A stretch of 47,446 nt of DNA, taken from contig JAJPHB010000080.1 of the NCBI GenBank assembly GCA_021325525.1, forward strand, positions 1 to 47,446, given 5' to 3'. The DNA comes from Alphaproteobacteria bacterium (lineage in GTDB: Bacteria > Pseudomonadota > Alphaproteobacteria > ATCC43930 > CGMCC-115725). The translations under genes were made by a program, and so were the position numbers. This document shows positions 25,010 to 45,289 of the stretch, piece by piece. Under the pieces are notes generated by a model. It did no database searches, had not been told where the DNA came from, and saw nothing but the letters and a program-made list of their open reading frames with translations. The stretch's first letter is position 1. The number at the start of each line of letters is the position of its first letter.

Positions 25010-25036
25010 GGCAAGAACTGCCCGGCAAGGCCTGCC
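25010..25036. promoter_or_regulatory. Tandem GGCA-N5-TGCC inverted repeats (FlbD-type enhancer) before flgF
   Basis: Two 13-base inverted repeats, GGCAAGAACTGCC at 25010-25022 and GGCAAGGCCTGCC at 25024-25036, lie about 75-100 bases upstream of a sigma-54-type element. The same repeat occurs before flgI, flgE and fliK. The arrangement matches the ftr enhancers bound by FlbD in Caulobacter as I remember them; binding here is inferred. Confidence 0.65.
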
Positions 25037-25111
25037 CCGGCGCCCCCGCCGGAGCGCTGCGGCGAGCGCGCCGGGCCGCGGATTGCTTGCTCCCGCACGA
25101 CGCCTTCGGCT

Positions 25112-25127
25112 TGGCACGCGGCGTGCA
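25112..25127 (+). promoter_or_regulatory. Sigma-54-type promoter of flgF
   Basis: TGGCACG-N4-GTGCA: an exact -24 block and a -12 block with one mismatch to TTGCA, GG and GC ten bases apart. Transcription would start near 25138, about 29 bases before flgF. Confidence 0.68.
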
Positions 25128-25166
25128 ACGAGGGCAGCGACGCCACACGAGGATCAGCGAAACCGC

Positions 25167-25883
25167 ATGCAAGCCGCGACTTATATCGCCCTTTCGAGCC
25201 AGATGGCGCTCAGCCGCCAGATGGACGTCGTCGCCAACAACCTGGCGAATGCCTCGACGCCCTCCTTCAAGGCCGAGCGTGTGCTCTTCGCCGAATATCT
25301 CGACCGGAAAGGCTCGACGCCGCTCGCCTTCGTGCAGGATTTCGGCTCGTCCCGCGACACGAGCCAGGGACCTCTTTCGCGGACCGGCAACTCCCTCGAC
25401 ATCGCCTTGCAAGGCGAGGGCTATCTGAAAGTCGACACGCCCTTCGGGACGCGCTACACGCGCAACGGCCGCCTGCTGCTCGATGCGACCGGCCAGCTCG
25501 TCACCGCGCAGGGCTACGCCGTGCTCGGCGCCGGCGACCAGCCGATCAACATCCCGACCAACGCCAAGAACATCGCGATCACCCGCGACGGCACGATCTC
25601 GACCGACCAGGGCGAGGCCGGACAGATCGAGATCGTGCAATTCCCCGATGAGCGCGCGCTGCGGCCCTCCGCCGGCGGGCTCTACGTCACCGAGGCGCAG
25701 CCGGTTCCCGCCAGCAACACCCTCGTCCTCCAAGGCATGATCGAGGGGTCCAACGTCGAGCCGATCATCGAGATGACGCGGCTGATGAAGATCGCACAGA
25801 GCTACAGCTCGGCCAAGGATTTGATGGATGGCGAGAACACGCGCATCACCAACGCCATCGACAAGCTCGGAAAAGTTGCATAG
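25167..25883 (+). CDS. flgF: Flagellar rod protein FlgF
   Basis: A 238-residue proximal-rod protein exported by the flagellar gate. It starts MQAATYIALSSQMALSRQMD followed by VVANNLANASTPSFKAERV, the axial-protein motif, has the central GEGYLKVDTPFGTRYTRNGRLLLD block and ends with SNVEPIIEMTRLMKIAQSY. First gene of the plus-strand series flgF-G-A-H, behind a sigma-54-type element. Confidence 0.95.
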   Translation: MQAATYIALSSQMALSRQMDVVANNLANASTPSFKAERVLFAEYLDRKGSTPLAFVQDFGSSRDTSQGPLSRTGNSLDIALQGEGYLKVDTPFGTRYTRNGRLLLDATGQLVTAQGYAVLGAGDQPINIPTNAKNIAITRDGTISTDQGEAGQIEIVQFPDERALRPSAGGLYVTEAQPVPASNTLVLQGMIEGSNVEPIIEMTRLMKIAQSYSSAKDLMDGENTRITNAIDKLGKVA

Positions 25884-25904
25884 CGCTCCCAGGAGATCCC
25901 AGCA

Positions 25905-26690
25905 ATGCGCTCCATGGACATCGCCGCGACCGGCATGCTGGCTCAGCAGCTCAATGTCGAGGTCATTTCCAACAACATCGCCAACCTCAACACCACCGGC
26001 TTCAAGCGCAACCGCGCCGAATTCCAGGATCTGCTCTATCAGAACGAGCGCAAGGTCGGCTCGAACTCCTCCGACCAGGGGACGATCGTGCCCGCCGGCG
26101 TGCAGGTCGGCATCGGCGTCAAGGCCGCCGCCGTCTACCGCATCACCGAGCAGGGCAACCTGTCGCCGACCAACAACCCGCTCGACGTCGCCATCCAGGG
26201 CCGCGGCTATTTCCAGATCAAGATGCCAGACGGCACCACCGCCTATACCCGCGCCGGCTCCTTCCAGCTGAGCCCGACCGGCGAGATCGTCACGGCGGAC
26301 GGGCTCGTCGTCCAGCCCGGGATCACCATCCCCGCCGACACGACCGCGATCTCGATCAATGCGAGCGGTCAGGTGCTGGCGACGATCTCGGGGCAGATCC
26401 AGCCGCAGACCGTCGGCCAATTCGAGCTCGCGACCTTCGCCAACGAGGCGGGCCTCAGCAATCTCGGCAACAACCTCCTGGCCGAGACCCCGGCTTCGGG
26501 CTCGCCCGTCACGGGCGCCCCCTCCTCCGTCGGCTTCGGCGCCTTGCAGCAGGGCTTCCTCGAAACCTCGAACGTCAACGTCGTCACCGAGATCACCAAC
26601 CTCATCACGGCCCAGCGCTCCTACGAGATGAACTCCAAGGTCATTCAGGTCTCCGACCAGATGTCGAACACGCTCAACAACTTCCGCTGA
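25905..26690 (+). CDS. flgG: Flagellar distal rod protein FlgG
   Basis: A 261-residue distal-rod subunit. N-terminus SMDIAATGMLAQQLNVEVISN with NIANLNTTGFKRNRAEF, central NPLDVAIQGRGYFQIKMPDG and C-terminus NVNVVTEITNLITAQRSYEM are diagnostic. AGGAG lies about 8 bases before the ATG; 21 bases separate it from flgF. Confidence 0.97.
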   Translation: MRSMDIAATGMLAQQLNVEVISNNIANLNTTGFKRNRAEFQDLLYQNERKVGSNSSDQGTIVPAGVQVGIGVKAAAVYRITEQGNLSPTNNPLDVAIQGRGYFQIKMPDGTTAYTRAGSFQLSPTGEIVTADGLVVQPGITIPADTTAISINASGQVLATISGQIQPQTVGQFELATFANEAGLSNLGNNLLAETPASGSPVTGAPSSVGFGALQQGFLETSNVNVVTEITNLITAQRSYEMNSKVIQVSDQMSNTLNNFR

Positions 26691-26712
26691 TCCGCCGGAG
26701 GAGAGAACCGCC

Positions 26713-27666
26713 ATGCGGATGCTGCTGCTTCTGGCCGCCCTGCTGCCGGCCGTCATCCTGTCGCCCGCTGTCAGCGCCGAGCCGGCTTTGCGCCCGAACA
26801 TCGTCGTCTCGGCCCCGGTCGTCCGCCTCGGCGATCTCTTCTCCGATGCCGGCGCCCATGCCGACGCGGCGGTCGCCCCGGCGCCGCCGCCCGGCGGCAA
26901 GGCCGTTTACGATGCCGCCTGGCTCGCCGCCCGGGCGCGCGAGCAGGATCTCGATTGGCAGCCGCGCTCGCGCTACGACCAAGCGACGGTCGAGCGGGCG
27001 AGCCAGACGATCACCGCCGAGGCGATCGCCGGCGAGCTGAAGCGCGCCCTCGGCAGCCGGCTGCCGCAAGGGCCGGTCCGCCTCGACCTCGACAATGCGG
27101 CATTGCGGCTCTTCGCGCCGGCCGGAGCGGCGCCGACGCTCGCCGTCGACAATCTCACCTATGATGCACGCAGCGGCCGCTTGTCGGCACTCGTCTCTGT
27201 GCCGGTCGATGGCGACACCATCGAACCTGTACGCGTCACCGGCCGCGTCTCCCGCATGGTCGATCTGCCGGTGCTGGCGCGGCCGGTCGCGCCGGGCGAG
27301 ATCATCGCCGCCGGCGATCTCGACACCGTCGAGCTGCGCGCCGACCGGATGACCGAGACCTATGTGACCGATTCCGCGGAGCTCATCGGCAAGACTCCGC
27401 GCCGCGCCATCCGTCCGGGCGAGCCGGTCCGGCCGAGCGATGTCCAGATGCCGATCGTCATCCGCAGGGGTGAGCTCGTCACGCTCGTCCTGCAAACCCC
27501 CACCATGCTTCTGACCGCGACGGCGAAGGCGCTCGAAGACGGCGCCGAGGGCGCCGCGATCCGCGTCAGCAATACGCGCTCCGGCCGGATGCTCGACGCC
27601 GTCGTCACCGGACCCGGCCGGGCCGCCGTCACGGTCCCCGCCGCGTCGGCCGTCGCCGCGCGCTAG
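26713..27666 (+). CDS. flgA: P-ring assembly chaperone FlgA
   Basis: A 317-residue periplasmic protein with signal peptide (MLLLLAALLPAVILSPAVSA) that helps FlgI form the P ring. The C-terminal SAF-type domain shows VARPVAPGEIIAAGDLDTVEL, KTPRRAIRPGEPVRPSDVQ and a final VSNTRSGRMLDAVVTGPGRA. It is longer than E. coli FlgA, as usual in alphaproteobacteria, with an extra N-terminal domain. GGAGGAGAG precedes the start. Confidence 0.93.
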   Translation: MRMLLLLAALLPAVILSPAVSAEPALRPNIVVSAPVVRLGDLFSDAGAHADAAVAPAPPPGGKAVYDAAWLAARAREQDLDWQPRSRYDQATVERASQTITAEAIAGELKRALGSRLPQGPVRLDLDNAALRLFAPAGAAPTLAVDNLTYDARSGRLSALVSVPVDGDTIEPVRVTGRVSRMVDLPVLARPVAPGEIIAAGDLDTVELRADRMTETYVTDSAELIGKTPRRAIRPGEPVRPSDVQMPIVIRRGELVTLVLQTPTMLLTATAKALEDGAEGAAIRVSNTRSGRMLDAVVTGPGRAAVTVPAASAVAAR

Positions 27667-27676
27667 GAGAGAAGCC

Positions 27677-28432
27677 ATGCCGACCCCCTCCCCGCTCCCG
27701 CGCGCCTTGGCCCTCATCGGCCTTGCCGCGCTGCTCGGCGGCTGCAATGCCTTGACGCGGATCTCCGAGATCGGCGAGGCGCCGCCGCTCACGACCATCC
27801 AGGACCCGCAGCGGCAGCCGGGATACCGCCCGGTGTCCCTGCCCATGCCGGCGCCGATCACGGCCGAGCGCCGCCCCAACTCCCTCTGGCAGGCCGGCAC
27901 CCGCGCCTTCTTCAAGGATCAGCGCGCCTCGCAAGTCGGCGACATCCTCACCGTCGTCATCAACATCAACGACCAGGCGAAGCTCTCGAACGAGACGGTG
28001 CGGAACCGGACGAACTCGGAGAATACCGGCATCAACAATGCGATGGGCTTCGAAACGCAGCTTCAGAAAATCCTGCCCCACGCCGCCAACCCGGCGAGCC
28101 TTCTCAACGCCAGCACCAACAGCAAGTCGGACGGCGTCGGCTCGATCGCGCGCACCGACCAGGTCACGGTCGAGATGGCGATGCTGGTCACCCAAGTGCT
28201 GCCGAACGGCGACCTCGTCGTCATGGGGCATCAGGAGATGCGGGTCAATTACGACATCCGCGACCTCCAGATCACCGGCGTCATCCGGCCGCAGGACATC
28301 AGCGCCACCAACACCATCACCCTCGACAAGATCGCCGAGGCGCGCGTCTCCTATGGCGGCCGCGGCCAGCTCATGGACGCGCAGCAGCCGCGCTACGGCC
28401 AGCAGCTCTTCGATATCATTGCGCCGTTCTAG
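27677..28432 (+). CDS. flgH: Flagellar L-ring lipoprotein FlgH
   Basis: A 251-residue outer-membrane L-ring protein. It has a lipoprotein signal with lipobox LLGGC (cysteine near residue 24), SLWQAGTRAFFKDQRASQVGDILTVVI, and the C-terminal GVIRPQDISATNTI and RVSYGGRGQLMDAQQPRYGQQ blocks. AGGAGA lies 6 bases before the ATG. Last gene of the flgF-G-A-H series; it converges with dksA. Confidence 0.96.
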   Translation: MPTPSPLPRALALIGLAALLGGCNALTRISEIGEAPPLTTIQDPQRQPGYRPVSLPMPAPITAERRPNSLWQAGTRAFFKDQRASQVGDILTVVININDQAKLSNETVRNRTNSENTGINNAMGFETQLQKILPHAANPASLLNASTNSKSDGVGSIARTDQVTVEMAMLVTQVLPNGDLVVMGHQEMRVNYDIRDLQITGVIRPQDISATNTITLDKIAEARVSYGGRGQLMDAQQPRYGQQLFDIIAPF

Positions 28433-28453
28433 GAAAGCGGCGGATCAGGGGTC

Positions 28454-28495
28454 GTTGCAAGAAGGCGAAGCAACCCGTCCGGGGCGGCCGCCCCG
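28454..28495. terminator. Hairpins between convergent flgH and dksA
   Basis: Two inverted repeats fill the 63-base gap: GTTGC/GCAAC around 28454-28474 and the perfect palindrome CGGGGCGGCCGCCCCG at 28480-28495, which abuts the dksA stop codon. No T-run follows. The position suits a shared bidirectional terminator. Confidence 0.45.
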
Positions 28496-28912
28496 TCAAT
28501 CGTCGCGGTGGGTGCGCTCCATGCGCTCATGCCGCTCCTGCGCGTCGAGGCTGAGCGTCGCGATCGGCCGCGCCTCGAGGCGGCGCAGGCCGATGGGCTC
28601 GTCCGATTCCTCGCAGAAGCCATAGCTGCCGTCCTCGATCCGGCTCAGCGCCGAATCGATCTTGGCGATCAGCTTGCGCTCGCGGTCGCGCGTGCGCAGC
28701 TCGATTGCCCGCTCCGTCTCCAACGACGCCCGGTCGGTCAGATCGGGCTTCAGGAGGCTCTCCTCTTTGAGGTGCTGGAGGGTTTCCGTCGATTCCGCCA
28801 GCAGCTCGGCCCGCCAGCGCAGCAGCTTTTGCCGAAAGTACTCGAGCTGCATGGGGTTCATGAATTCTTCGTCTTCCGATGGACGGTAGTCCGGGGGAAG
28901 CTGCGGGCGCAT
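28496..28912 (-). CDS. dksA: RNA polymerase-binding transcription factor DksA
   Basis: A 138-residue DksA, which binds in the RNA polymerase secondary channel and acts with ppGpp. The coiled-coil part (LEYFRQKLLRWRAELLAES; DRASLETERAIELRTRDRERKLIAKIDSAL) leads to a degenerate zinc finger, YGFCEESDEPIGLRRLEARPIATLSLDAQ, with a single cysteine in place of four, as in many alphaproteobacterial DksAs. The ATG at 28912 has GGAG 6 bases upstream and lies downstream of a good promoter, which excludes the longer open frame to 28999. It follows fliX on the same strand, a linkage common in this class. Confidence 0.93.
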   Translation of the reverse strand: MRPQLPPDYRPSEDEEFMNPMQLEYFRQKLLRWRAELLAESTETLQHLKEESLLKPDLTDRASLETERAIELRTRDRERKLIAKIDSALSRIEDGSYGFCEESDEPIGLRRLEARPIATLSLDAQERHERMERTHRDD

Positions 28913-28963
28913 CAACGACTCCGTAAGGACCAACAGGCGCGGAAGCTGAAAAATGCGCGCGGG

Positions 28964-28992
28964 AGTATATGAATCGCCATGGCTCGGGGCAA
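28964..28992 (-). promoter_or_regulatory. Candidate housekeeping promoter of dksA
   Basis: On the minus strand TTGCCC (28987-28992) and TATACT (28964-28969) are 17 bases apart, giving a start near 28957 and a leader of about 45 bases before the ATG at 28912. Confidence 0.6.
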
Positions 28993-29002
28993 GCGCCACG
29001 AT

Positions 29003-29016
29003 CTTGAAAATTCAAG
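29003..29016. repeat. AT-rich palindrome between fliX and dksA
   Basis: CTTGAAAATTCAAG is a perfect 14-base palindrome directly upstream of the dksA -35 element and 15 bases after the fliX stop. It could be an operator for dksA or a weak end-of-transcript hairpin for fliX. Confidence 0.4.
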
Positions 29017-29030
29017 CGGATTTTGCAGAC

Positions 29031-29444
29031 CTACAATGCATCCGAGAGCTTCGCCAGCTCGACAGCGGCGCGCAGCTCGATCTCGTCGAGCAGCTGCTCG
29101 AGGCCCGGATCTGCCGTTTCCGACCGGGCCGCCTTGGCCTGGGCGGCGAGATCGGCGAGCGCGCTGCGGTCGAGGGTGCCCGAGAGAAGGCCGTGCTGAA
29201 GCTCGCGAAGGCGGTCCAGGATGCGGCCGCCGCGCGCCACCGCCTTGCGCCGTTCCGCCGTCGCATCTTCGACTTCCTGCAGGGCGAAGAGGCCGCCGAC
29301 GGCGCAGGCCGGCGCCGGTTTGGCCGCCGCGGCCGTGGGTTCGCTGCCGAGCTGCTCGGCGAAGCCGCCGCCGCCGATGCTCGCCGCCTTGTCGCCGCGG
29401 CGGCCGATGGCGGGACGGAGCGGGCTATTCGCATCGACTCTCAT
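29031..29444 (-). CDS. fliX: Flagellar assembly regulator FliX
   Basis: A 137-residue protein of the FliX family, known from Caulobacter as the partner that links early flagellar assembly to activity of the sigma-54 activator FlbD. The variable N-terminal half is Ala/Gly-rich; the C-terminal half LRELQHGLLSGTLDRSALADLAAQ and LEQLLDEIELRAAVELAKL is the conserved part. The start at 29444 gives MRVDANSPLR, a usual FliX N-terminus. It diverges from flgI across a shared regulatory region with an exact CtrA-type box 42 bases upstream. This flgI/fliX arrangement is the one known in Caulobacter. Confidence 0.92.
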   Translation of the reverse strand: MRVDANSPLRPAIGRRGDKAASIGGGGFAEQLGSEPTAAAAKPAPACAVGGLFALQEVEDATAERRKAVARGGRILDRLRELQHGLLSGTLDRSALADLAAQAKAARSETADPGLEQLLDEIELRAAVELAKLSDAL

Positions 29445-29485
29445 TCGCAGTCCTCTCGACCCGGCGGCACCTTCGCAACCGTGAA

Positions 29486-29500
29486 TTAAGAATGGCTTAA
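29486..29500. promoter_or_regulatory. CtrA-type box between fliX and flgI
   Basis: Exact TTAA-N7-TTAA, 42-56 bases before fliX. It probably serves fliX, since flgI has its own sigma-54-type element further on. Confidence 0.7.
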
Positions 29501-29516
29501 GCCTGGCGCACGCGTC

Positions 29517-29551
29517 GGCAGAAATTGCCGGCGGTCCCGGCAGGTTCTGCC
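29517..29551. promoter_or_regulatory. Paired GGCA-N5-TGCC repeats (FlbD-type enhancer) before flgI
   Basis: GGCAGAAATTGCC at 29517-29529 and GGCAGGTTCTGCC at 29539-29551 have centres 22 bases (about two helical turns) apart and lie 54-88 bases upstream of the flgI sigma-54-type element. The first also sits about 75 bases before fliX and could act there, next to the CtrA box. Confidence 0.65.
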
Positions 29552-29604
29552 CGGCGGCGGCAACCCGTGGGCCCAGCGAGCGCGGCCGGCCGCGGCGCCG
29601 GCGC

Positions 29605-29620
29605 TGGCACGGATTTCGCA
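29605..29620 (+). promoter_or_regulatory. Sigma-54-type promoter of flgI
   Basis: TGGCACG-N4-TCGCA: exact -24 block and one mismatch (TTGC to TCGC) in the -12 block, correct spacing. Transcription would begin near 29631, which supports the later flgI start at 29662 over in-frame ATGs at 29620 and 29632. Confidence 0.62.
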
Positions 29621-29661
29621 TGTGGCCCGGTATGAAGATTTTCTCCAGAGGCCCGAGCGCG

Positions 29662-30870
29662 ATGACCGCGAGCCGCCGCGTCCGCCGCCTTGCCGCGCCC
29701 TTGCTGCTGGCCGTGACGCTCGCCTGGGCCACCTCGGCCACCGCCGCCTCGCGCGTCAAGGATATCGCGGATTTCGAAGGCATCCGCGAGAACATGCTGG
29801 TCGGCTACGGGCTCGTCGTCGGATTGAACGGCACCGGCGACTCCCTCAACCGCTCGATCTTCACCCGCGAGAGCCTTATCGGCATGCTGGAGCGGCTGGG
29901 CGTCAACGCCCGCGACGACTCCCTGCGCACCGCCAATGTCGCCGCGGTGATGGTGACGGCGAATTTGCCGCCCTTCGCGCGCCAGGGAACGCATATCGAC
30001 GTCACCGTCTCGGCCCTCGGAGACGCCAAGAGCCTCTTGGGCGGGACCCTGCTCGTCACGCCGATGCTCGGCGCCGATGGCGAGGTCTATGCGGTGGCGC
30101 AAGGCTCGGTGCAGACAGGCCTCGTCGCCAAGGGAGCCGCCGCCTCGGTCACCAAGGGCGTGCCGACCTCCGGGCGCGTTGCCAATGGCGCCATCGTCGA
30201 GCGCGAGATCGCCTTCGAGATGGCGAGCCTCAAAAGCGTCAACATCATGCTGCACAACCCCGACCTGACGACGGCGCGGCGCATCGCGCAGGTGATCAAC
30301 GGCTATCTGCGCGCGCCGGCGGCGCGGCCGCTCGACCCGTCGACCGTGCTTCTCACCCTGCCGGCGAACTTCCAGGGCGACATCGTCAGCCTCGTTACCG
30401 ACATCGAGCAGCTCCGCGTCGAGCCCGACCAGCCGGCGCGCGTCGTCATCGACGAGCAGAACGGCGTCATCGTCATGGGCGAGAACGTCCGCATCAGCAC
30501 CGTCGCGATCGCCCAAGGCAACCTCACGGTCAAGGTCACCGAGACGCCGCAAGTCTCGCAACCCAACCCCTTCGCGCCGACGGGCCAGGCTCCCGTCGTC
30601 GACCCGGCGACCGGCAAGCCGGCGGCCGGCGGCAAGGGCGGCGTGCAATTCGCGCCCAATGGCGGCGGCCAGACCGTCGTCGTGCCGCGCACCGAAATCC
30701 AGGTCGACGAGCAGTCCGAGCGGCGCATGGCGGTCTTGCCCGAAGGCGTGAGCCTGCAGGAGCTCGTCAACAGCCTCAACGCGCTCGGCGTCGGACCGCG
30801 CGACATGATCAGCATCCTGCAGGCGATCAAGGCGGCGGGCGCCCTGCAGGCCGATATCGAGGTCATGTGA
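29662..30870 (+). CDS. flgI: Flagellar P-ring protein FlgI
   Basis: A 402-residue periplasmic P-ring subunit with signal peptide (LAAPLLLAVTLAWATSATA) followed by SRVKDIADFEGIRENMLVGYGLVVGLNGTGDS, the invariant FlgI start of the mature protein. Further blocks are VTVSALGDAKSLLGGTLLVTP and the C-terminal LQELVNSLNALGVGPRDMISILQAIKAAGALQA. The start at 29662 is chosen for GAGG 10 bases upstream, a compact signal peptide, and the sigma-54-type element that ends at 29620. It overlaps flgJ by one base (TGATG). Confidence 0.95.
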   Translation: MTASRRVRRLAAPLLLAVTLAWATSATAASRVKDIADFEGIRENMLVGYGLVVGLNGTGDSLNRSIFTRESLIGMLERLGVNARDDSLRTANVAAVMVTANLPPFARQGTHIDVTVSALGDAKSLLGGTLLVTPMLGADGEVYAVAQGSVQTGLVAKGAAASVTKGVPTSGRVANGAIVEREIAFEMASLKSVNIMLHNPDLTTARRIAQVINGYLRAPAARPLDPSTVLLTLPANFQGDIVSLVTDIEQLRVEPDQPARVVIDEQNGVIVMGENVRISTVAIAQGNLTVKVTETPQVSQPNPFAPTGQAPVVDPATGKPAAGGKGGVQFAPNGGGQTVVVPRTEIQVDEQSERRMAVLPEGVSLQELVNSLNALGVGPRDMISILQAIKAAGALQADIEVM

Positions 30871-31651: not shown

Positions 31652-31658
31652 ACGCCGG

Positions 31659-31883: not shown

Positions 31884-32001
31884 TGGACGTCCCCTGCGGC
31901 GCTCGGCGCCGCCCGATCGATATCTCCCCATTAACAGGATGGCAACATCTTTCAGAATATATTTGAACATGATCTCGTTTTCAAGCGGTGAATACTTATA
32001 G

Positions 32002-32016: not shown

Positions 32017-32055
32017 TTTGGTTATTACTTCACATGTGAGCGCAGGATACGGAAC

Positions 32056-36503: not shown

Positions 36504-36528
36504 GCCTGCTGGACCTATGCTACGCGGT

Positions 36529-37362
36529 TTACCGGAACAGGGACAGGACGGCGCCCGGCCCCTGGTTGGCGATCGAGAGAGCCTGAATACCGAGCTGCTG
36601 CTTCGTCTGCAGAGCCTGGAGGTTGGCGCTCTCCGCCGCCAGGTTCGCATCGACCAGGTCGCCGACGCCGGTCGTCAGCGAATCCGTCAGGGTGGTGACG
36701 AAATTCGCCTGCGTCGTGATCTGGTTGCTCGCCGTGCCGAGCTTGCTGAGCGCGGTCTTCACGGTGTTGATCGCCGTGTTGATGGTGTTCAGCGCAGCGC
36801 TCGCATTGGCGACCGTGCTGACGCTGATCGTGCTGATCGAAAGACCGGTCGTGCTCGACAGGTCTTCGGCCGCGACGGTGATGAACGCCGCGCTGACGAC
36901 CGTCGAGGAGGTCCGGTTGAGGGACGACAGGAAGGTCTGGGCGGTGGCGCCGGTCTTCAGCAGGTTGACGCCGTTGAACTGCGCCGCGGCCGTGGTCGAG
37001 TCGATCTGCGCGATGAGCGAGCTCACGTCCGTCTGAAGGGCGTTGCCGTCCGAGGTCGGGTCCTGCGCCTGCACGGCCTTGGCCTCGAGCTCGTTCAGGA
37101 TGTTCGAGATCGTGGTCGCACCCTGGAGAGCGACGTTCACCGCCGCGGTCGCCTCGCCGAGCGCGTCGCTCACCGCCTGGAAGCCGGCGATGTCGCCGCG
37201 CTGGCCCTGGGCGATGGCGAAGGTCGAGGCGTTGTCGGCAGCGCTCGAGACTTTGAGGCCGGTGCTGACCCGGTTCTGAGTCTGCGTCAGCTGCTGCTGC
37301 GTGAGGTTGAGGGTCTCGAGAGCAGCGAGGGCGTTCGTGTTGGTGTTGACCGAGAACGTCAT
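36529..37362 (-). CDS. Flagellin
   Basis: A 277-residue filament subunit. The N-terminal D0/D1 region (FSVNTNTNALAALETLNLTQ; LTQTQNRVSTGLKVSSAADN) and the C-terminal D1/D0 region (NFVTTLTDSLTTGVGDLVDANLAAESANLQALQTKQQLGIQALSIANQ) are conserved; the middle is short and Ser/Thr-rich, offering many sites for O-glycosylation. It has a strong ribosome binding site (GGGAGA) 5 bases before the ATG, an upstream exact CtrA-type box, an intrinsic terminator, and leader palindromes that may be the target of FlbT. It is the only flagellin gene in the window. Confidence 0.97.
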   Translation of the reverse strand: MTFSVNTNTNALAALETLNLTQQQLTQTQNRVSTGLKVSSAADNASTFAIAQGQRGDIAGFQAVSDALGEATAAVNVALQGATTISNILNELEAKAVQAQDPTSDGNALQTDVSSLIAQIDSTTAAAQFNGVNLLKTGATAQTFLSSLNRTSSTVVSAAFITVAAEDLSSTTGLSISTISVSTVANASAALNTINTAINTVKTALSKLGTASNQITTQANFVTTLTDSLTTGVGDLVDANLAAESANLQALQTKQQLGIQALSIANQGPGAVLSLFR

Positions 37363-37367
37363 AAAAA

Positions 37368-37380
37368 TCTCCCGTGTGGA
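37368..37380 (-). promoter_or_regulatory. Small hairpin over the flagellin ribosome binding site
   Basis: On the flagellin strand CTCC-ACACG-GGAG lets the Shine-Dalgarno GGAG pair with CTCC just upstream. The stem has only 4 pairs, so it is weak on its own, but it would place translation under control of anything that stabilises it. Confidence 0.4.
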
Positions 37381-37408
37381 GGCTATCCGGCGCCTTGTGG
37401 ACCGGAAC

Positions 37409-37422
37409 CGGACAAATGTCCG
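37409..37422. promoter_or_regulatory. Perfect palindrome in the flagellin leader
   Basis: CGGACAAATGTCCG, 47-60 bases before the flagellin ATG, is self-complementary over 14 bases. In RNA it would fold as a short stem; in DNA it could bind a dimeric regulator. FlbT, encoded at 40147-40545, is known in Caulobacter to act on the 5' untranslated region of flagellin mRNA, so this is a candidate target. Confidence 0.45.
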
Positions 37423-37448
37423 ATGCGGGAGATTTGATCCGAAATGTT

Positions 37449-37487
37449 TTAAGCGGAGCTAAATAATATTAGTTAAGGCAAGATTAA
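37449..37487 (-). promoter_or_regulatory. CtrA-type boxes before flagellin
   Basis: An exact TTAA-N7-TTAA at 37473-37487 and a one-mismatch TTAA-N7-TAAA at 37449-37463, in an AT-rich segment 87-125 bases before the flagellin start. No sigma-54 or sigma-28 consensus was found here. Confidence 0.65.
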
Positions 37488-37575
37488 TTTCGGAGGATTG
37501 TCTATGATTTTATCTATTTACTTTGAGTGATCTGCCAATGCCGGAGCGTATACGGGAACAGTTAAGCCAATGCTC

Positions 37576-37617
37576 ACCGGCACCGGCGCGGCGATCCGCG
37601 CCGGCGCCGGTGCCGGT
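37576..37617 (-). terminator. Long inverted repeat after flgL
   Basis: Arms ACCGGCACCGGCGCGG and its complement, the right arm carrying a 6-base insertion, around a CGAT loop. It lies 17 bases after the flgL stop, between flgL and flagellin. No clear T-run; probably a transcript end or an RNA-stabilising hairpin. Confidence 0.45.
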
Positions 37618-37633
37618 TTACGCCGGATCGAGC

Positions 37634-38665
37634 CTAGGCGACGCTCGGCGGCGGCAGGAAGTTGACGAGGCTGAGGCCCTGGAGGCTGGCGACGATGTGG
37701 TAGGAGGCCTGGAGCTGCGTCTGAAGCTGGGTCAGCCGCGTCGAGGCATCGGGAAGGCTGACGAGCTCGATATTGTCGATCTGCGTCTGCAGGATCGTCA
37801 GCGTCGCGTTATGCGTATTGGTCTCGTCGCTCAGCATCTTCTCGTTGTCGCCGTTCTTCTCGACCAGGCCTTCGAGCTGCGAGAGGCCGCTCGAGATCTG
37901 GCTGGCGGCCGCTTGCGCCGTCGCATCGAACTGGCTGTCGGAGATATTGGGCGGCGCCGCCACCGGCCCGACCGGTTGCGGCAGCGCCGCCAGCGTGTAG
38001 AGCCCGGTCAGAATCGTGAGGAAGGCGGGGTCACTCGCGGTGATGCTGTCATTGATGGTGAGACCCTGGTCGATCTGGGTCGGCGGATAGGCGGGGCCGC
38101 CCGTGTAGTAGGCGGCGGCCGAGGAGAAGACGCCGGCCACCGCCGCCTGAATCGCCGCCGGAACGTTGGGCGGCCCGCCCGCCAGCGCCGTATTGATCGC
38201 GGTCTGCACCGTCGGCAGCAGGGTCGCGAGGCCGATCATCGGGTTCCCCAGCGTCTGGGTGCCGCCGAAGAGGTTGCGCCCGTCGGCCGCCGCCTGAAGC
38301 TGCTGCGTGATCTGATTGATCGCCGCCTGCGCCGAGCTCACCACCTCGATGCGCTGCGATGGCTGGTTCGAGACGAAGGCGAGGTTCTGCACGTTGAGCG
38401 CCGAATCGTGAATGATGTTGAGGCTGGACTCGATGAGCTTGGTGCGCACCTGGAGCTGGCTGATGGTGTTGTTGAAGTCGTCGATCACATCGGCCTGCTG
38501 CCGGAGATTGATGTCGAGAGAGGCCTGCGCGCCGAGGTCGCCGAAGACCTGCGCCTTGTCGCCCGTCGCCACTTGATTCTGAACCTGCTGGATCTGGCCT
38601 TGCAGCGCCGTGAACTCGCTGCGCAGGAGGTCATTCTGCCCGAGCGTCGAAAGGGTTGCGACCAT
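37634..38665 (-). CDS. flgL: Flagellar hook-filament junction protein FlgL
   Basis: A 343-residue flagellin-related junction protein (HAP3). N-terminal helices ALQGQIQQVQNQVATGDKAQVFGDLG and the segment ADGRNLFGGTQT are typical of FlgL, and the C-terminus ends with DASTRLTQLQTQLQASYHIVASLQGLSLVNFL. It lies 19 bases after flgK and ahead of flagellin on the same strand. Confidence 0.93.
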   Translation of the reverse strand: MVATLSTLGQNDLLRSEFTALQGQIQQVQNQVATGDKAQVFGDLGAQASLDINLRQQADVIDDFNNTISQLQVRTKLIESSLNIIHDSALNVQNLAFVSNQPSQRIEVVSSAQAAINQITQQLQAAADGRNLFGGTQTLGNPMIGLATLLPTVQTAINTALAGGPPNVPAAIQAAVAGVFSSAAAYYTGGPAYPPTQIDQGLTINDSITASDPAFLTILTGLYTLAALPQPVGPVAAPPNISDSQFDATAQAAASQISSGLSQLEGLVEKNGDNEKMLSDETNTHNATLTILQTQIDNIELVSLPDASTRLTQLQTQLQASYHIVASLQGLSLVNFLPPPSVA

Positions 38666-38684
38666 CAGGGTCTCCCGTCACCTG

Positions 38685-40121: not shown

Positions 40122-40146
40122 CGCGGTTCTCCTTTACCGGGCGGCG

Positions 40147-40545
40147 TCATTGGGCCGCGTCGAGCAGTCGCCGCTCCGCCGGCAGGGCGGCGCGCAAGGC
40201 GCTGAGCGCGCGGTAGAAGTCGCCGGACGCCACATGCGTCAGCGTCTGGGTGATGGCGCCTCTGATCTGCGCGTTGGAGGTCGCCGCGAAGAGCTCGGTG
40301 GCGAACTCCATGAACAGCTTGCGGTGGTTCTCCGCGCCCTCGGCATCGAGATACATGCATTGAAGGGCGAAATAGGTGCGCAGCAGCGGCGTATTCGCCT
40401 CCTCCGGCAGGAGCACGTCCTTTTGCTGGAGGAGCTGCGCCTTGTTGTGGAAGGTGAGCGTGACGGCGCGAGGCGAGTTGTTGCTCAGCACCGCGCCGTT
40501 GACGATCAGCTTCTCCTGCGGCTTCAAGGTGAGGTTCAGCGGCAT
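40147..40545 (-). CDS. flbT: Flagellin post-transcriptional regulator FlbT
   Basis: A 132-residue FlbT, which in Caulobacter binds the flagellin mRNA leader and promotes decay until the hook is complete, and in Brucella and others acts positively. MPLNLTLKPQEKLIVNGAVLSNNSPRAVTLTFHN is the family N-terminus; LQCMYLDAEGAENHRKLFMEF and LTHVASGDFYRALSALRAAL follow. The ATG at 40545 has AAGGAG 6 bases upstream, excluding the longer frame to 40605. It usually neighbours flaF; no flaF is seen in the window. Confidence 0.94.
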   Translation of the reverse strand: MPLNLTLKPQEKLIVNGAVLSNNSPRAVTLTFHNKAQLLQQKDVLLPEEANTPLLRTYFALQCMYLDAEGAENHRKLFMEFATELFAATSNAQIRGAITQTLTHVASGDFYRALSALRAALPAERRLLDAAQ

Positions 40546-40571
40546 TGTGCGCTCCTTCCCGTCTCCGATCG

Positions 40572-40594
40572 GCGCGCCCCCTTCTGGGGCGCGC
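40572..40594 (-). terminator. Strong hairpin between flgE and flbT
   Basis: GCGCGCCCC and GGGGCGCGC form a 9-pair GC stem with a 5-base loop, about 40 bases after the flgE stop and 27 bases before the flbT start. No T-run. It may reduce read-through from the abundant hook transcript or protect the flgE mRNA end. Confidence 0.5.
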
Positions 40595-40633
40595 GCATGC
40601 TGCATGGTATGCGGAAATCATTACCAATTCAGA

Positions 40634-42361
40634 CTACTGGATGAGGTTGTTGGTTTCCTGAAGGAGCTGGTTCGTCGTCGTCACCACCTTGGTGTTCGCC
40701 TCATAGGCGCGCTGCGTCTGGATGAGCTTCGTGAACTCGGCGGCGATGTCGACATTGGAGCCCTCGACGCTCGACGGCACGATGGTGCCCGTGCCGTTGT
40801 CGCCCGGCGACTGCACCGAAGGCGTGCCGCTCGCCACCGTCGTCGAATAGGCGTTGCCGTTCTGCGACTGCAGGCCGTTCGGGTCCGAGAAGCTGGCGAG
40901 CGGAACCTGAAACTCGGTCTTGCGCGCGCCATTGTCGTAGTTGAGCGTGATGTTGCCGTGCGAATCGATGTTGAGGTCCCGGAACGAGCCGGGCGGCAGA
41001 CCGTCCTGCTGCGCCGAGATGAAGTTGATGTCGGTGCCGGTGAACATCGTCGTCTGCGAGGCGATGCCGTAGCTGCCGAGGTTGAAGTTGATGGGCTGGC
41101 TGGTCGGCGTCGTGCCGTTGAAATTGACGGTGAGCGGCACCGTCGCCGCCGTGCCGACGCCACCCGCTACGCCGTTGATGCTCTTGATGCTGCCGGCCTT
41201 GGCGCCGGTCAGCGCATTGTCGACGACGTTGAAGACGACGGTCGTCGGCGTGATCGGCAGGATGCTCGTGATGGTGGGGTCGGTCGAGGTATAGGTCACG
41301 GTGTAAGTGTCGTTGGTGCCCGAGACCTTCGTCCAGTTGACGTTGACGACATGCGCCGCGCCTTGCGCGTCGAAAAAGTTGACCGTGCTCGGCGCGAACT
41401 GGATGTTGGCGGGAATCGTCGCCGCGGAGGTCGTCGTGCCGGCGAGGGCCGCGCCGCCCGTGCTCACCGCGGTCACCGGGTTCGAGGGCGTCCCGTCGAT
41501 CGTCAGGTTCGAATTCGAGGCGTCGATCGAGCTTGAAAAGCCGTTCTGGGTCAGGCTGGTGGCGAGGAGGCTCAGAATCTGCGAGGGCGTGTTGGTGACG
41601 CCGCCGACATTGAAGTTGACCTGCACCTGGCCGGGACCGGCCGTCGCGGCGCCGGCGCCGAGGCTCTGATCGCTGAGCACGAAGGTGACGGCGGGCCCGG
41701 TCGTCGGCGTCACGGTGATCGTGTTGCCGTTGGCGAAATTGGGGGCCGAGGGTGTCGTCGGCCAGGTCAGGGTCCGCCCGACCGTGATCGGCGCCGTCGG
41801 GCCCGTATTGAGCGTCGACGGCGGGTTGGTCGGGAGATTGGCGGAATAGGTGATGTTCGCGGTCGCCACGGGATTGGTCTTGAGCTGGTTGAGCTGAATG
41901 GGCACGACCGCATTCTTCAACACCTGGCCCGTCTTCTGGTCGATGGCGAAGCCGTTGAGGACGTAGCCGGCGTTGTTGACGAGGAAACCGTTGTTGTCGA
42001 CGCTGAAGTCGCCGGCGCGAGTGAAGAGCGGATCGGGCGCGAAGCTCGGCAGGCCCTGGCCGTTCACCGAGGTGATCTGGCTCACCGAGAAGAAGCCGTC
42101 GCCGGAGATGGCGAGGTTCGTCTCGACGCTCGTCTGCTGCACATTGCCCTGAATGCCGTTGGTGTAGAGCGGCTTGCTGGTGACGCCGCCCGGATCATGG
42201 ACGAGCGCATTGGAGACGGTCAGCAGCGTCGAGAACTGCGTGTCGACCCGCTTGTAGCCGGTCGTCTGCGAGTTGGAGATGTTGTCGGAGATCGCTCCCA
42301 GCGCCTGCGACTGGGCATCGATGCCGGTGACCGCCGAGGTCAAAGCGCCGCTCAAACTCAT
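40634..42361 (-). CDS. flgE: Flagellar hook protein FlgE
   Basis: A 575-residue hook subunit with SLSGALTSAVTGIDAQSQALGAISDNISNSQTTGYKRVD at the N-terminus and EGSNVDIAAEFTKLIQTQRAYEANTKVVTTTNQLLQE at the C-terminus. The central region is long and Thr/Pro/Asn-rich with FlgE D2-like NFFDAQGAAHVVNVNWTKVSG; it exceeds enteric FlgE (about 400 residues), as usual in alphaproteobacteria. It has its own exact sigma-54-type promoter and enhancer repeat. Confidence 0.96.
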   Translation of the reverse strand: MSLSGALTSAVTGIDAQSQALGAISDNISNSQTTGYKRVDTQFSTLLTVSNALVHDPGGVTSKPLYTNGIQGNVQQTSVETNLAISGDGFFSVSQITSVNGQGLPSFAPDPLFTRAGDFSVDNNGFLVNNAGYVLNGFAIDQKTGQVLKNAVVPIQLNQLKTNPVATANITYSANLPTNPPSTLNTGPTAPITVGRTLTWPTTPSAPNFANGNTITVTPTTGPAVTFVLSDQSLGAGAATAGPGQVQVNFNVGGVTNTPSQILSLLATSLTQNGFSSSIDASNSNLTIDGTPSNPVTAVSTGGAALAGTTTSAATIPANIQFAPSTVNFFDAQGAAHVVNVNWTKVSGTNDTYTVTYTSTDPTITSILPITPTTVVFNVVDNALTGAKAGSIKSINGVAGGVGTAATVPLTVNFNGTTPTSQPINFNLGSYGIASQTTMFTGTDINFISAQQDGLPPGSFRDLNIDSHGNITLNYDNGARKTEFQVPLASFSDPNGLQSQNGNAYSTTVASGTPSVQSPGDNGTGTIVPSSVEGSNVDIAAEFTKLIQTQRAYEANTKVVTTTNQLLQETNNLIQ

Positions 42362-42404
42362 GGTCTACTCCTCTTTCTGAGGGATGCCGCTCCGCAGGTC
42401 CCCC

Positions 42405-42420
42405 TGCAAATCGCAGGCCA
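42405..42420 (-). promoter_or_regulatory. Sigma-54-type promoter of flgE
   Basis: On the minus strand TGGCCTG-N4-TTGCA, with GG and GC exactly ten bases apart and a full TTGCA -12 block. The start would lie near 42393, about 30 bases before the flgE ATG. Confidence 0.72.
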
Positions 42421-42494
42421 GATCGGAACGTCCGGCATCGCCTCGCTTGGTTGCCAGTTGAGGCCCCTTGCCCGGCCCTTCCGGCCGAGCTCCG

Positions 42495-42507
42495 GGCAAA
42501 ACCTGCC
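42495..42507. promoter_or_regulatory. GGCA-N5-TGCC repeat (FlbD-type enhancer) before flgE
   Basis: GGCAAAACCTGCC, 75-87 bases upstream of the flgE sigma-54-type element, just beyond the flgD stop. Only one clear copy is seen here, against two at the other promoters. Confidence 0.6.
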
Positions 42508-42513
42508 GCCTCG

Positions 42514-43185
42514 TCACGAGGTGATCGCGACGATCTTGCCCAGCGGCTCGCTCACGCCGTTGATGCGGACGCTGGTCGTGCCGTTGCTGAACTGCACGGA
42601 ATCGACCTTGCCGAAGCTGGTGTCGGTCGCAGTGATCGCGCTGCCATCGGACGCCGTGGCGGAAACATTGAAGGTGTAGGTGCCGTCGGGAAGCTGGCCG
42701 CCATCCGAGCCGTGGCCGTCCCAGCTGAAGGTGTGCGCGCCGGCGGCCGTGTCGCCCTGGCCTTGGAAGACGATCTTGCCGCTCGCGTCGGAGACGGTGA
42801 TCACCGCTTGCGAGGCCTGCGAGGGGAGCGTGTAGGCGAACTGCGCCGAACCGTCCACGAGCGGCAGCTTGTTGTCGCTGAACTGCACGGTGTGGCCGAC
42901 AAGCGGCAGTGCCGCCACGGACTGATCGGCCGATTGCAGCGCGATGAGGTTGTCGAGCTTGGTGTTGGTATTGATCGCCTGCTCGACCTGGCTGAAGCTG
43001 ACGAGCTGCTGCGTGAATTGGTTGGTGTCGAGCGGCGATTCCGGATCCTGGTTCTGGAGCTGCGTCGTCAGCAGCTTGAGGAAGGTGTTGAGATCCGAGC
43101 CGAGCGTCGCCTGCGCCGCGCTCGTCGTCTGCCCCGAGGTCGTGGGCGCCGGGGTCGGCGTATTCGATCCGATGCTTGCGGTCAT
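42514..43185 (-). CDS. flgD: Hook-capping protein FlgD
   Basis: A 223-residue scaffold that caps the growing hook. The N-terminal block LGSDLNTFLKLLTTQLQNQDPESPLDTNQFTQQLVSFSQVEQAINTN is diagnostic, followed by Ig-like FlgD domains (GTYTFNVSATASDGS). It starts 28 bases after fliK and is probably co-transcribed with it from the fliK sigma-54-type promoter. Confidence 0.95.
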   Translation of the reverse strand: MTASIGSNTPTPAPTTSGQTTSAAQATLGSDLNTFLKLLTTQLQNQDPESPLDTNQFTQQLVSFSQVEQAINTNTKLDNLIALQSADQSVAALPLVGHTVQFSDNKLPLVDGSAQFAYTLPSQASQAVITVSDASGKIVFQGQGDTAAGAHTFSWDGHGSDGGQLPDGTYTFNVSATASDGSAITATDTSFGKVDSVQFSNGTTSVRINGVSEPLGKIVAITS

Positions 43186-43213
43186 GTGCAGCTCCGTGCC
43201 GAGTGAGTGTCGA

Positions 43214-45145
43214 TCAGACGTGGATGTCGATATCGCCGTGATGCCGGGCGAGCCGCGGCGGCGCCGCCGTCGCCGTCACGGGCGCGCGCGCATCGTTTGC
43301 GGGCGTCCGCAGCACGGTGCGGCCGGCGCCGGATTGCGCGAATTGCTGCTGCCCCGCTCCGGTTTCGCCGCCTCGCAGGTTGAAGCTCAACGAGCCGCTA
43401 TTGGCGCTGAGCCCCGCATCACGCAGCGACTGTTCGAGGGCGTGAGATTCGCTGTGGAGGAGATGCAGCGTCTCCGGCCGGTCGGCCGAGATCGCGGCGC
43501 TGAAATGCCCATCGCGCGTGAAGTCGAGCCGCACCTCGATCTTGCCGAGGCTCGCCGGGTTGAGCTCGATCTGGATCTGGTTGGCGCCAGCCTTGATGGC
43601 GCGCTTTAGATTGACGGCGACTTGCTCGGCGATCGGGGCGAGCGGCACGGCCGGCGCTGCCGGCGCGGTGGCGGGCGGATTGCCCGGTCCGGAGCCGTTG
43701 GCAATGACCGGTGGCGCGGCGGGCGCGCTGAGCGCAACGGCCGCGTCATGCGCCGGGCCAGCGCCGGAAGCTCCCGGATCCGCCGCCGGAGCGGAAGCCG
43801 CCGGTGGGGCGCTCATCAAAGGCTGCGCCTTGCCGGAAGCGGCGGTCGGCGCGGTGGCGGCCGGCGCGGGCGCCGGATCGAGATGTTCCGACAAAGGACC
43901 GGAGGGCGGGCCCGCCGCCGGTGCCTCGCCGGTCTTGCCGGCGGATGGGGCAGAGCCGCCGGTGCCGGCATGCGGCGCTTGCGGCGGGATGACCGCTCCC
44001 GCGAATTTCGGCGTGAGGTCGACGGTGTTGGCAACCGCCGGAAGCGGCGTGCCCGGGCCGTTGCTCGCTGCGGCCGGGATGGCCGCTCCTTGCCCGCTCG
44101 CACCCGCGACGGCGACGACGCCATTGGGTCCAGCGGCGGCCAGCGTCGGCGCGACCGGAGGCGCTGCGGCGGGCGGCGCGGGCGTAGCGCTCGGCGTGGC
44201 CGCGATGGGCTGCGCTGGCGCTGGAGCGCTCGGCCCGGCGGTGATATGGGCGAGCAGCGCCGCCGCTTGCGGCCGAAGCGCGGCGGCGGAGGGCGCCGCC
44301 ATGGCGGGGCCGCCCGCCTGGGCCACCGGCACAGATACAGTCGCGGCGCCGGCGAGGGGCGCGAGGGAAAATCCCGAAGGAGCGATCGGTATCGCCGAAG
44401 GCGTCGCTTGCTGCGCCGCAGCGGCAAGGAGAGGCGCCGGAGCCGGCGCCGAGCCCTGGGCCGGGATCGAAGACTCGGTTTGCAACGCCGCCGGAGCCGG
44501 CGGCGAGGCGGGCGCGGCGATGGTCGGCCGAAGCGTGGGCTGAACCGCGGGTGAGCCGGCCGGCATCGGCGACGGCAAAGTCGTGATGCCGGCCGGTTGC
44601 AGCGCCGATGCCGCCGCGACGAGCGCAGTGCCGGGGCGGGGCGGGCTCGGGAACGCGCCTGGAATGCTCGGCGCCGCTGCTCGCGTCGCGTCAGCGGCGG
44701 CGCGAAGGACAATCGCCGGCGAAGCGGCTGTCGCGGCGGCGAGCGCAACAGGGGGCAGCGACTGAGCCGCATATCCGGGCAAAGGTGCGGGGCTCGCGGG
44801 GCTCTGGAACACAGCGGCGGGGGCGACCGGAAACCCGGCAAGCGGAAAGGAGGCGGTGGCCGTGGTCCCGCCGGGCGATGCCGCCGACGCATCCTGCTGG
44901 GTTTGCGCGCCATGGCCAGCGGCCGTGCCGCTCTTGGCTGCCGCCGTGGTTTTCGGCGCCGCCGAGGGTGCCGCCGCCCCGGCCCGGAGGCGCGGCGGCG
45001 GTGCAGTGGCCACAGTCGCAGACGCGCCCGCCGCACCCAGAAACTGAGCGAAAGACGCCCCGCCACCCGCCGGCACGCTTATCGCGGCGGGCGCTTGGGC
45101 GCCGATCGAGGGTTGAAGTTCGATGATCATCGTCGGGGGCTGCAC
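43214..45145 (-). CDS. fliK: Flagellar hook-length control protein FliK
   Basis: A 643-residue protein whose first 500 residues are extremely rich in Ala and Pro (low complexity, as in FliK molecular rulers). The C-terminal domain contains QIQIELNPASLGKIEVRLDFTRDGHFSAAISADRPETLHLLHSE, the Flg_hook/FliK_C core that touches FlhB to switch export. The GTG at 45145 has GAGGGGG about 6 bases upstream; an ATG at 45130 is an alternative and would fit better if the sigma-54-type start near 45153 is correct. The gene precedes flgD and diverges from the SDR gene. Confidence 0.88.
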   Translation of the reverse strand: MQPPTMIIELQPSIGAQAPAAISVPAGGGASFAQFLGAAGASATVATAPPPRLRAGAAAPSAAPKTTAAAKSGTAAGHGAQTQQDASAASPGGTTATASFPLAGFPVAPAAVFQSPASPAPLPGYAAQSLPPVALAAATAASPAIVLRAAADATRAAAPSIPGAFPSPPRPGTALVAAASALQPAGITTLPSPMPAGSPAVQPTLRPTIAAPASPPAPAALQTESSIPAQGSAPAPAPLLAAAAQQATPSAIPIAPSGFSLAPLAGAATVSVPVAQAGGPAMAAPSAAALRPQAAALLAHITAGPSAPAPAQPIAATPSATPAPPAAAPPVAPTLAAAGPNGVVAVAGASGQGAAIPAAASNGPGTPLPAVANTVDLTPKFAGAVIPPQAPHAGTGGSAPSAGKTGEAPAAGPPSGPLSEHLDPAPAPAATAPTAASGKAQPLMSAPPAASAPAADPGASGAGPAHDAAVALSAPAAPPVIANGSGPGNPPATAPAAPAVPLAPIAEQVAVNLKRAIKAGANQIQIELNPASLGKIEVRLDFTRDGHFSAAISADRPETLHLLHSESHALEQSLRDAGLSANSGSLSFNLRGGETGAGQQQFAQSGAGRTVLRTPANDARAPVTATAAPPRLARHHGDIDIHV

Positions 45146-45163
45146 TGTCTTCCCCCTCGCCGA

Positions 45164-45179
45164 AGCAAGCGCCGGGCCA
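45164..45179 (-). promoter_or_regulatory. Sigma-54-type promoter of fliK-flgD
   Basis: Minus strand TGGCCCG-N4-TTGCT, correct 10-base GG/GC spacing and a full TTGC. The predicted start near 45153 falls within the Shine-Dalgarno of the GTG start, so the leader would be very short or the ATG at 45130 used. Confidence 0.65.
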
Positions 45180-45255
45180 AAGCCGGGCTATGCCGCTAAG
45201 TCGTTGAAACGGTTCTCCTCGCCGCGCGGCGCACCGCGCCGGTACGCGGCTTTCC

Positions 45256-45289
45256 GGCAATCCCTACCCGGCCAGCGGCAAGATTTGCC
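45256..45289. promoter_or_regulatory. Paired GGCA-N5-TGCC repeats (FlbD-type enhancer) before fliK
   Basis: GGCAAGATTTGCC at 45277-45289 and a one-mismatch copy GGCAATCCCTACC at 45256-45268, centres 21 bases apart, 77-110 bases upstream of the fliK sigma-54-type element. The spacing repeats that at flgI. Confidence 0.62.

Follow-up and report, generated by a model that had tools for sequence, protein, structure and literature searches.

Inverted-repeat boxes predicted to bind FlbD upstream of sigma-54 flagellar promoters in an alphaproteobacterial contig and across FliX-bearing Alphaproteobacteria

In the flagellar hierarchy of Caulobacter, FlbD binds to ftr sites, from which it activates middle and late sigma-54 genes and, via ftr4, represses fliF, whereas its own activity is gated by FliX, according to the passages on FlbD in PMC3930126 and PMC3096577. 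The same components are treated in parts of PMC4287350, PMC7064773, PMC12421884, PMC6180460, PMC8921679, PMC10274813 and PMC12363192; the main text of PMC7591256 contains no mention of FlbD. In the relevant passage of PMC6180460, flbD is absent from the Rhodobacteraceae compared there and FlbD is stated to be phosphorylated, a statement unsupported by the passages of PMC3930126 and PMC3096577. Here, we describe a 47,446-base stretch of DNA (hereafter, the window) from an alphaproteobacterial genome, GenBank assembly GCA_021325525.1, contig JAJPHB010000080.1, in which 13-base inverted repeats of the form GGCA-N5-TGCC (boxes) precede the promoters of flgF, flgI, flgE and fliK. From their sequence, placement and conservation, we predict with high confidence that these repeats are binding sites, or enhancer boxes of the ftr type, for an FlbD dimer.

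Six exact boxes are present in the window, starting at 25010, 25024, 29517, 29539, 42495 and 45277, compared with a mean of 1.47 copies (standard deviation 1.18) in shuffled versions, of which one in 100 reached six. A previous, sequence-only reading of this DNA had counted seven; six of these are exact, and the seventh, at 45256, is GGCA-N5-TACC, with one mismatch. Its remark that the repeats stand at the four promoters, none having been noticed before other genes, holds for exact copies within the window, and a sigma-54-type element does indeed lie where it had proposed one for each of the four genes. Our sigma-54 score uses hand-made weights based on the sigma-54 consensus rather than a trained matrix, with a threshold of 16.5; eight places in the window reach it, and exact boxes lie 30–200 bp upstream of four of them only, namely, those of flgF, flgI, flgE and fliK. 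The individual features are as follows, distances being measured from the box centre to the first base of the element.
25010..25022, unstranded: distal box of the flgF promoter, GGCAAGAACTGCC; exact motif, 96 bp to the element
25024..25036, unstranded: proximal box of the flgF promoter, GGCAAGGCCTGCC; exact motif, 82 bp
25112..25127, forward strand: flgF sigma-54 -24/-12 element, TGGCACGCGGCGTGCA, from the sigma-54 score
29517..29529, unstranded: distal box of the flgI promoter, GGCAGAAATTGCC; exact motif, 82 bp
29539..29551, unstranded: proximal box of the flgI promoter, GGCAGGTTCTGCC; exact motif, 60 bp
29605..29620, forward strand: flgI sigma-54 element, TGGCACGGATTTCGCA, with an off-consensus TCGC -12, from the sigma-54 score
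42405..42420, reverse strand: flgE sigma-54 element, TGGCCTGCGATTTGCA, from the sigma-54 score
42495..42507, unstranded: box of the flgE promoter, GGCAAAACCTGCC; exact motif, 81 bp
45164..45179, reverse strand: fliK sigma-54 element, TGGCCCGGCGCTTGCT, from the sigma-54 score
45256..45268, unstranded: proximal box of the fliK promoter, GGCAATCCCTACC; one mismatch, 83 bp as calculated from the positions
45277..45289, unstranded: distal box of the fliK promoter, GGCAAGATTTGCC; exact motif, 104 bp
The exact copies thus lie 60–104 bp upstream, inside the range of 55–120 bases first suggested, and the pairs at flgI and fliK are 22 and 21 bp apart, in keeping with the proposed two helical turns; the flgF pair is spaced by 14 bp.

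The repeats had also been taken for a species-specific consensus, an idea that does not survive comparison across the class. Of 240 alphaproteobacterial genomes, 132 have a match to FliX, and fliX neighbourhoods were taken from 110 of the 132 matches in addition to the window's own (22, mostly weak or partial, were excluded by hand). In 94 of the 110, flgI lies beside fliX, which with the window makes 95 regions, 93 of them with a sigma-54 element. An exact box is found no more than 200 bp upstream of the flgI element in 60 of the 93, seven control dyads being found in 0–4; mononucleotide shuffling of the regions gave a mean of 0.34 and a maximum of 2 in 200 shuffles. Moreover, GGCA-N5-TGCC ranks first among all 256 four-base dyads with gaps of 0–12 upstream of flgI. 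Allowing up to one mismatch, a box lies at 45–130 bp in 81 of the 93 regions (six control dyads, 1–5), and when the genomes are grouped by hand into families, 47 of 65 possess an exact flgI box. Within the spacer, purines prevail at position 5 of the box and pyrimidines at position 9, each in 70 of 77 flgI boxes. Additionally, a set of 80 named records, with many metagenome bins among them (Azospirillum, Nitrospirillum, Desertibaculum, Kiloniellaceae and others; overlap with the main set is possible), gave boxes in 35 of the 54 flgI regions with an element, from 67 looked at, and in 31 of 45 flgF regions.

The spacing between box and promoter also follows the helical period. Their distances from the flgI element cluster near 60, 71, 82, 91, 103 and 113 bp, and for a period of 10.5 bp the Rayleigh statistic R is 0.577 (n = 77; p about 1e-11, with kinship left uncorrected), falling only to 0.51 (n = 47; median p 6e-6) with one distance per family. 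The named set behaves similarly, both at flgI (R 0.55, n = 42, p 3e-6) and at flgF (R 0.46, n = 42, p 1e-4; somewhat better at a period of 11). Where exact flgI boxes are paired (17 pairs), they are 18–23 bp apart in 12 cases and 30–32 bp in five, with none at 24–29 bp; six of the named flgI pairs fall at 18–23 bp. Phasing and pair spacing together fit activator dimers arranged on one face of looping DNA. They also bear on whether the repeats act instead in RNA, as leader hairpins or attenuators, or as terminators of neighbouring genes. Inverted repeats in intergenic DNA would be compatible with such a role; however, these have stems of only four bases around a five-base loop, the sigma-54 element places the predicted start site downstream of them, so that they fall outside the leader of the downstream gene, and a 10.5-bp phasing to the promoter is a property of the DNA helix. 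We therefore consider an RNA role to be very improbable.

The sequence-only reading had staked its identification of FlbD sites on the presence of flbD and rpoN, and both are found in the genome (4.79 Mb in 172 contigs, cited as C14, C28 and so forth). There is one PF04552 match for rpoN (222.7 bits), and fliX, present in single copy, adjoins the flgI boxes as had been noted (a PF10768 gene). The FlbD orthologue, on contig 124, matches NCBIfam model NF050807.1 with 719.5 bits (E 1.6e-216) over model positions 24–451 of 454, and has a GAFTGA motif and a Fis-type helix–turn–helix; we attribute its failure to reach the model cut-off of 750 to the contig edge, which cuts the N-terminus and with it the first 23 model positions. 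Directly downstream of flbD is flhA (FHIPEP), followed by genes for an SRP54-type GTPase (flhF-like) and a MinD/ParA-type ATPase (flhG-like). Towards the end of contig 172, fliF, fliG, a gene with no Pfam match and fliN are consecutive, and contigs 172 and 124 may adjoin in the manner of the Caulobacter fliF operon. Upstream of fliF itself (C172:2156-3856), there is a further exact box pair at C172:3928/3948, 20 bp apart and 72–92 bp before the start, just five bases from a TTAA-N7-TTTA that we call CtrA-like, here and below, on the basis of the CtrA consensus. No sigma-54 element of score 16.5 is found near this pair, as would be expected, by analogy with Caulobacter, were it to mediate feedback repression by FlbD; a box is also seen on the fliF side in three hand-picked relatives (L284, L287, L306). 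As far as sequence can tell, then, the assignment to FlbD is supported, and we infer that the protein binds these boxes.

Several observations weigh against this reading. The bare motif is close to chance genome-wide, with 173 copies compared with 143 for a reversed control, and a looser pattern (GGCAR-N3-YTGCC followed after 44–104 bases by TGGC-N9-GC, thus including the purine/pyrimidine rule) gives 13 places versus 9 for its control in the window's own genome and no excess over 31 genomes, comprising this one and relatives (208 versus 227). These same counts are what would favour chance inverted repeats in G+C-rich DNA. The sequence-only reading had regarded frequent occurrence in unrelated DNA as damaging to its case, and for the bare motif this does apply; it does not for the box combined with a canonical element, since a box with TGGC-N8-TGC 48–108 bases on occurs at 12 places in the genome versus 3 for the control. 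Four of the 12 are in the window (two at flgF, one each at flgE and fliK; flgI is missed owing to its TCGC -12), and others are at C28:18905, C45:28090/28122 and C14:7021; the remaining four (C74, two on C119, C165) may well be chance, given that the control pattern itself gives three. Set against the position of the boxes relative to sigma-54 elements, their recurrence at a single locus far above the shuffled mean, the 10.5-bp phasing, and the comparative evidence from flgI and flgF, coincidence is scarcely credible as an explanation. The negative counts for the looser pattern leave our assessment of the competing explanations unchanged, because a loose scan is distinct from the locus-based tests. 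The pattern is not specific, and its single matches need other evidence. As a regulon finder, the bare-motif scan was rejected: a strong sigma-54 element lay at 40–160 bp in only one of 15 loci examined. A looser sigma-54 scan of the genome was likewise abandoned for a stricter one, having returned far too many places.

From the looser-pattern list for this genome and its relatives, 49 places were picked by eye for a plausible promoter, a choice biased towards success, and 33 of them precede a recognized target: flgI (9), flgF (7), fliK (3), flagellin (2), fliF (3) and homologues of three new targets described below (9). The other 16 (L279–L281, L283, L285, L288, L290, L292, L295, L302, L304, L307, L311, L321, L325 and L327) precede no recognized target; by our rule, L307, L321 and L327 at the least are without a sigma-54 element. 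In two relatives (L294, L298), the fliK promoter has four boxes in a row, 82–194 bp upstream of the sigma-54 element.

Also on the negative side, an exact box is absent from 33 of the 93 flgI regions, and a one-mismatch box at 45–130 bp from 12; in the named records, flgE and fliF gave no regions at all, and 13 of the 67 flgI regions, all from Azospirillum, have no sigma-54 element by our rule. Six of these Azospirillum regions were inspected (L174, L177, L181, L186, L193, L222) and each has an exact box between fliX and flgI, as does A. cavernae; either the element rule fails there or the promoter differs. One named flgI pair is spaced by 43 bp, and the 14-bp spacing of the flgF pair in the window is off whole helical turns; the latter spacing recurs in seven of 11 paired named flgF records (L171, L177–L180, L191, L214), the other four being at 21 bp.

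A separate difficulty concerns the identity of the regulator. The contig edge truncates the start of flbD, so that the receiver domain is only partly covered, and the genome encodes five other strong sigma-54 activators, three with GAFTGA and one with GAFTDA (six strong Sigma54_activat proteins in total; five further matches are weak, at 20–27 bits). With several GAFTGA activators present, use of such sites by other regulators is conceivable in principle; the boxes would then be sigma-54 enhancers for another enhancer-binding protein, be it NtrC-, NtrX- or otherwise Fis-type, and NtrC-type sites, too, consist of spaced inverted repeats. Nevertheless, the boxes precede rod, ring, hook and hook-length genes and stand beside fliX across the class, and the fliF pair corresponds in place to the known FlbD site ftr4, as described in the relevant passage of PMC3930126. 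Among the genomes without FliX, 20 of 108 were searched for flgI and three have it, with neither an exact box (0/3) nor an element at threshold (0/3; one region has a weak 15.8 match far upstream), a control that amounts to three genomes only. On balance, another activator seems improbable, and we retain FlbD as the predicted ligand.

The flgI and flgF promoters share a further peculiarity, namely, a -12 that departs from consensus. At flgI it is TCGC in 76 of the 93 regions of the main set (the window and L055–L164) and in 46 of the 54 named ones, and at flgF it is [ACG]TGC in 44 of 45 named promoters; by comparison, the canonical TTGC is found in eight of nine diguanylate cyclase promoters and 21 of 21 promoters of a 300-residue protein, both introduced below. 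Our sigma-54 score penalizes TCGC, and the search was therefore not biased towards it. Conservation of such weakened promoters throughout the class suggests that the weakness has a function. By analogy with the nifH promoter, the weak -12 elements may enforce dependence on a DNA-bound activator.

The genes concerned, the names of which agree with their Pfam and NCBIfam matches (FlgD, FlbT and flagellin are also matched in the window), are the following, together with CtrA-like sites in the two divergent regions.
24364..24921, reverse strand: fliL, divergent from flgF; Pfam FliL
24952..24966, unstranded: CtrA-like TTAA-N7-TTGA in the divergent region, towards fliL; assigned by the CtrA consensus
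25167..25883, forward strand: flgF (proximal rod); Pfam LlgE_F_G_D1 and Flg_bb_rod, set apart from flgG by gene order
29046..29444, reverse strand: fliX, class II flagellar assembly regulator; Pfam PF10768, 127 bits
29486..29500, unstranded: CtrA-like TTAA-N7-TTAA on the fliX side; assigned by the CtrA consensus
29620..30870, forward strand: flgI (P ring); NCBIfam FlgI
40634..42361, reverse strand: flgE (hook); NCBIfam FlgE models
43214..45145, reverse strand: fliK (hook length); Pfam Flg_hook
The -12 element and the flgI ATG at 29620 overlap, and the true start is therefore probably 29662, where an ATG opens what appears by eye to be a signal-peptide-like start. In both the fliL/flgF and the fliX/flgI region, the box pair separates the CtrA-like site that belongs to the early gene from the sigma-54 element of its later neighbour, an arrangement in which one pair could serve both divergent genes in opposite senses. 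Of the 93 fliX/flgI regions, 16 contain an exact TTAA-N7-TTAA, and most are thus without this exact form. In the window it occurs at 21978, 29486, 32002, 36431 and 37473 (0.02 expected from base composition, at 67.5% G+C), and four of the five sites stand before cheZ, fliX, a DUF1217 gene and the flagellin gene. Elsewhere in the window, a 1089-residue open reading frame at 17955-21224, between flagellar and chemotaxis genes, has no Pfam match at E 1e-5, and the stretch 10028-12622 encodes a hybrid histidine kinase with a CckA-like make-up.

Three candidate targets lie outside the known flagellar genes. The first is a diguanylate cyclase, a 228-residue GGDEF protein with intact GGDEF and RxxD motifs (C45:28247-28933; L040 7248-7934), the promoter of which combines two boxes with a near-perfect sigma-54 element, TGGCACGGTCCTTGCT. 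Homologues are found in 14 of 39 family genomes at E <= 1e-30 (16 matches in total). Each of the nine nearest, including our own (E <= 5e-49), has a sigma-54 element scoring at least 16.4 within 500 bp upstream, and in seven of the nine exact boxes lie 40–160 bp from it; seven more distant homologues have neither element nor boxes (0/5 among those with complete flanks). Our own cyclase and three of the others were first met via the pattern searches; the remaining five have the element in 5/5 and boxes in 3/5. The second candidate is a 300-residue uncharacterized protein (C28:19013-19915; L039 7014-7916) with no Pfam or NCBIfam match, preceded by a box, an adjoining near-box, GGCAAATTTGCC, and the element TGGCACCGCCCTTGCA. 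Of 240 genomes, 96 encode its conserved domain, and 86 of these also have FliX; FliX alone is found in 46, the protein alone in 10 and neither in 98 (Fisher p 5e-20, kinship uncorrected). Among its 30 best loci, 26 are complete, with an element in 21 and a paired box in 12 (ten control dyads, 0–1). A profile search found no convincing relative of solved structure, the best match being a designed protein with E 0.014. The third, a secreted-looking protein of 218 residues without a Pfam match (C14:7152-7808), has one box and TGGCGCGCGATTTGCA upstream, and a boxed homologue in one relative (L326). In family relatives (L280, L285, L288, L292, L295), PilZ/methyltransferase-like and TPR proteins are encoded behind a box and a sigma-54 element; a part for them in flagellin modification is speculation.

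Drawing on the gating by FliX described for Caulobacter, we propose that once the MS ring, switch and export gate are complete, FliX would allow FlbD to act. Seated on one or two boxes some 60–115 bp upstream, on the face of the DNA from which looping can reach the sigma-54 polymerase, FlbD would then use its AAA+ domain to open the rod (flgF), P-ring (flgI), hook (flgE) and hook-length (fliK) promoters, while the pair beside the CtrA-like site of fliF, with no sigma-54 element, would switch off the early operon; the regulon would extend to the cyclase and the uncharacterized conserved protein. Whether this amounts to an assembly-checkpoint regulon that reaches beyond structural genes and is widespread in FliX-bearing Alphaproteobacteria is, when taken jointly with its four parts, evenly poised in our judgement. 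These parts are that a dedicated diguanylate cyclase would be triggered once the export apparatus is complete, tying a c-di-GMP pulse to a stage of building; that the same event would also trigger a widespread, uncharacterized, flagellum-associated protein; that at the divergent loci one box pair would turn the later gene on and the CtrA-driven neighbour, fliX or fliL, off; and that the conserved weak -12 at flgI and flgF would make these promoters dependent on tethered FlbD. The link from flagellar assembly stage to diguanylate cyclase is directly testable, and the 300-residue protein becomes a candidate flagellar component or regulator. More generally, box, helical spacing and sigma-54 element provide a testable rule for proposing FlbD targets in unstudied genomes, one that has already yielded the three candidates above, albeit that the loose pattern alone is insufficient.

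Among the published titles surveyed, none was recognized as dealing with the class-wide motif, the phasing or the cyclase, which is weak evidence of novelty as the survey took in few subscription papers; the FlbD passages cited here contain neither an ftr consensus nor a cyclase target. NtrC-type enhancers have the same architecture of paired inverted repeats some 60–120 bp upstream, with helical phasing and looping, but differ in half-site sequence and in regulator. The closest likeness is to the ftr/FlbD/FliX system of Caulobacter crescentus, with the same partners, the same class of targets and, here too, a box pair at fliF; the boxes are most likely its ftr element, which they presumably resemble in consensus. 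Caulobacter promoters with FlbD binding sites are reportedly listed by Fumeaux et al. (cited in PMC12421884), and Dardis 2021 (cited in PMC8921679) is said to describe the FlbD–FliX regulon of Bradyrhizobium diazoefficiens; the passages concerned give neither binding sites nor a diguanylate cyclase target, a point of difference from the regulon predicted here. The flagellins mark a difference: those of Caulobacter are described as RpoN-dependent and FlbD-regulated in the passage of PMC3930126 concerned, whereas the flagellin gene of the window (36529-37362) is preceded by a CtrA-like site, its 278-bp upstream region (37363-37640) containing no box, even with one mismatch allowed, and no sigma-54 element. 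Control of flagellin by sigma-54 and FlbD is a Caulobacter trait and no part of the box itself; in two family relatives (L312, L320), flagellin genes have both a box and a sigma-54 element. Overall, the element is of a known kind, an ftr-type FlbD enhancer, and the earlier finding is extended by its class-wide form, by the helical rule, by the conservation of weak -12 elements and by a predicted regulon that takes in the cyclase and the uncharacterized protein.

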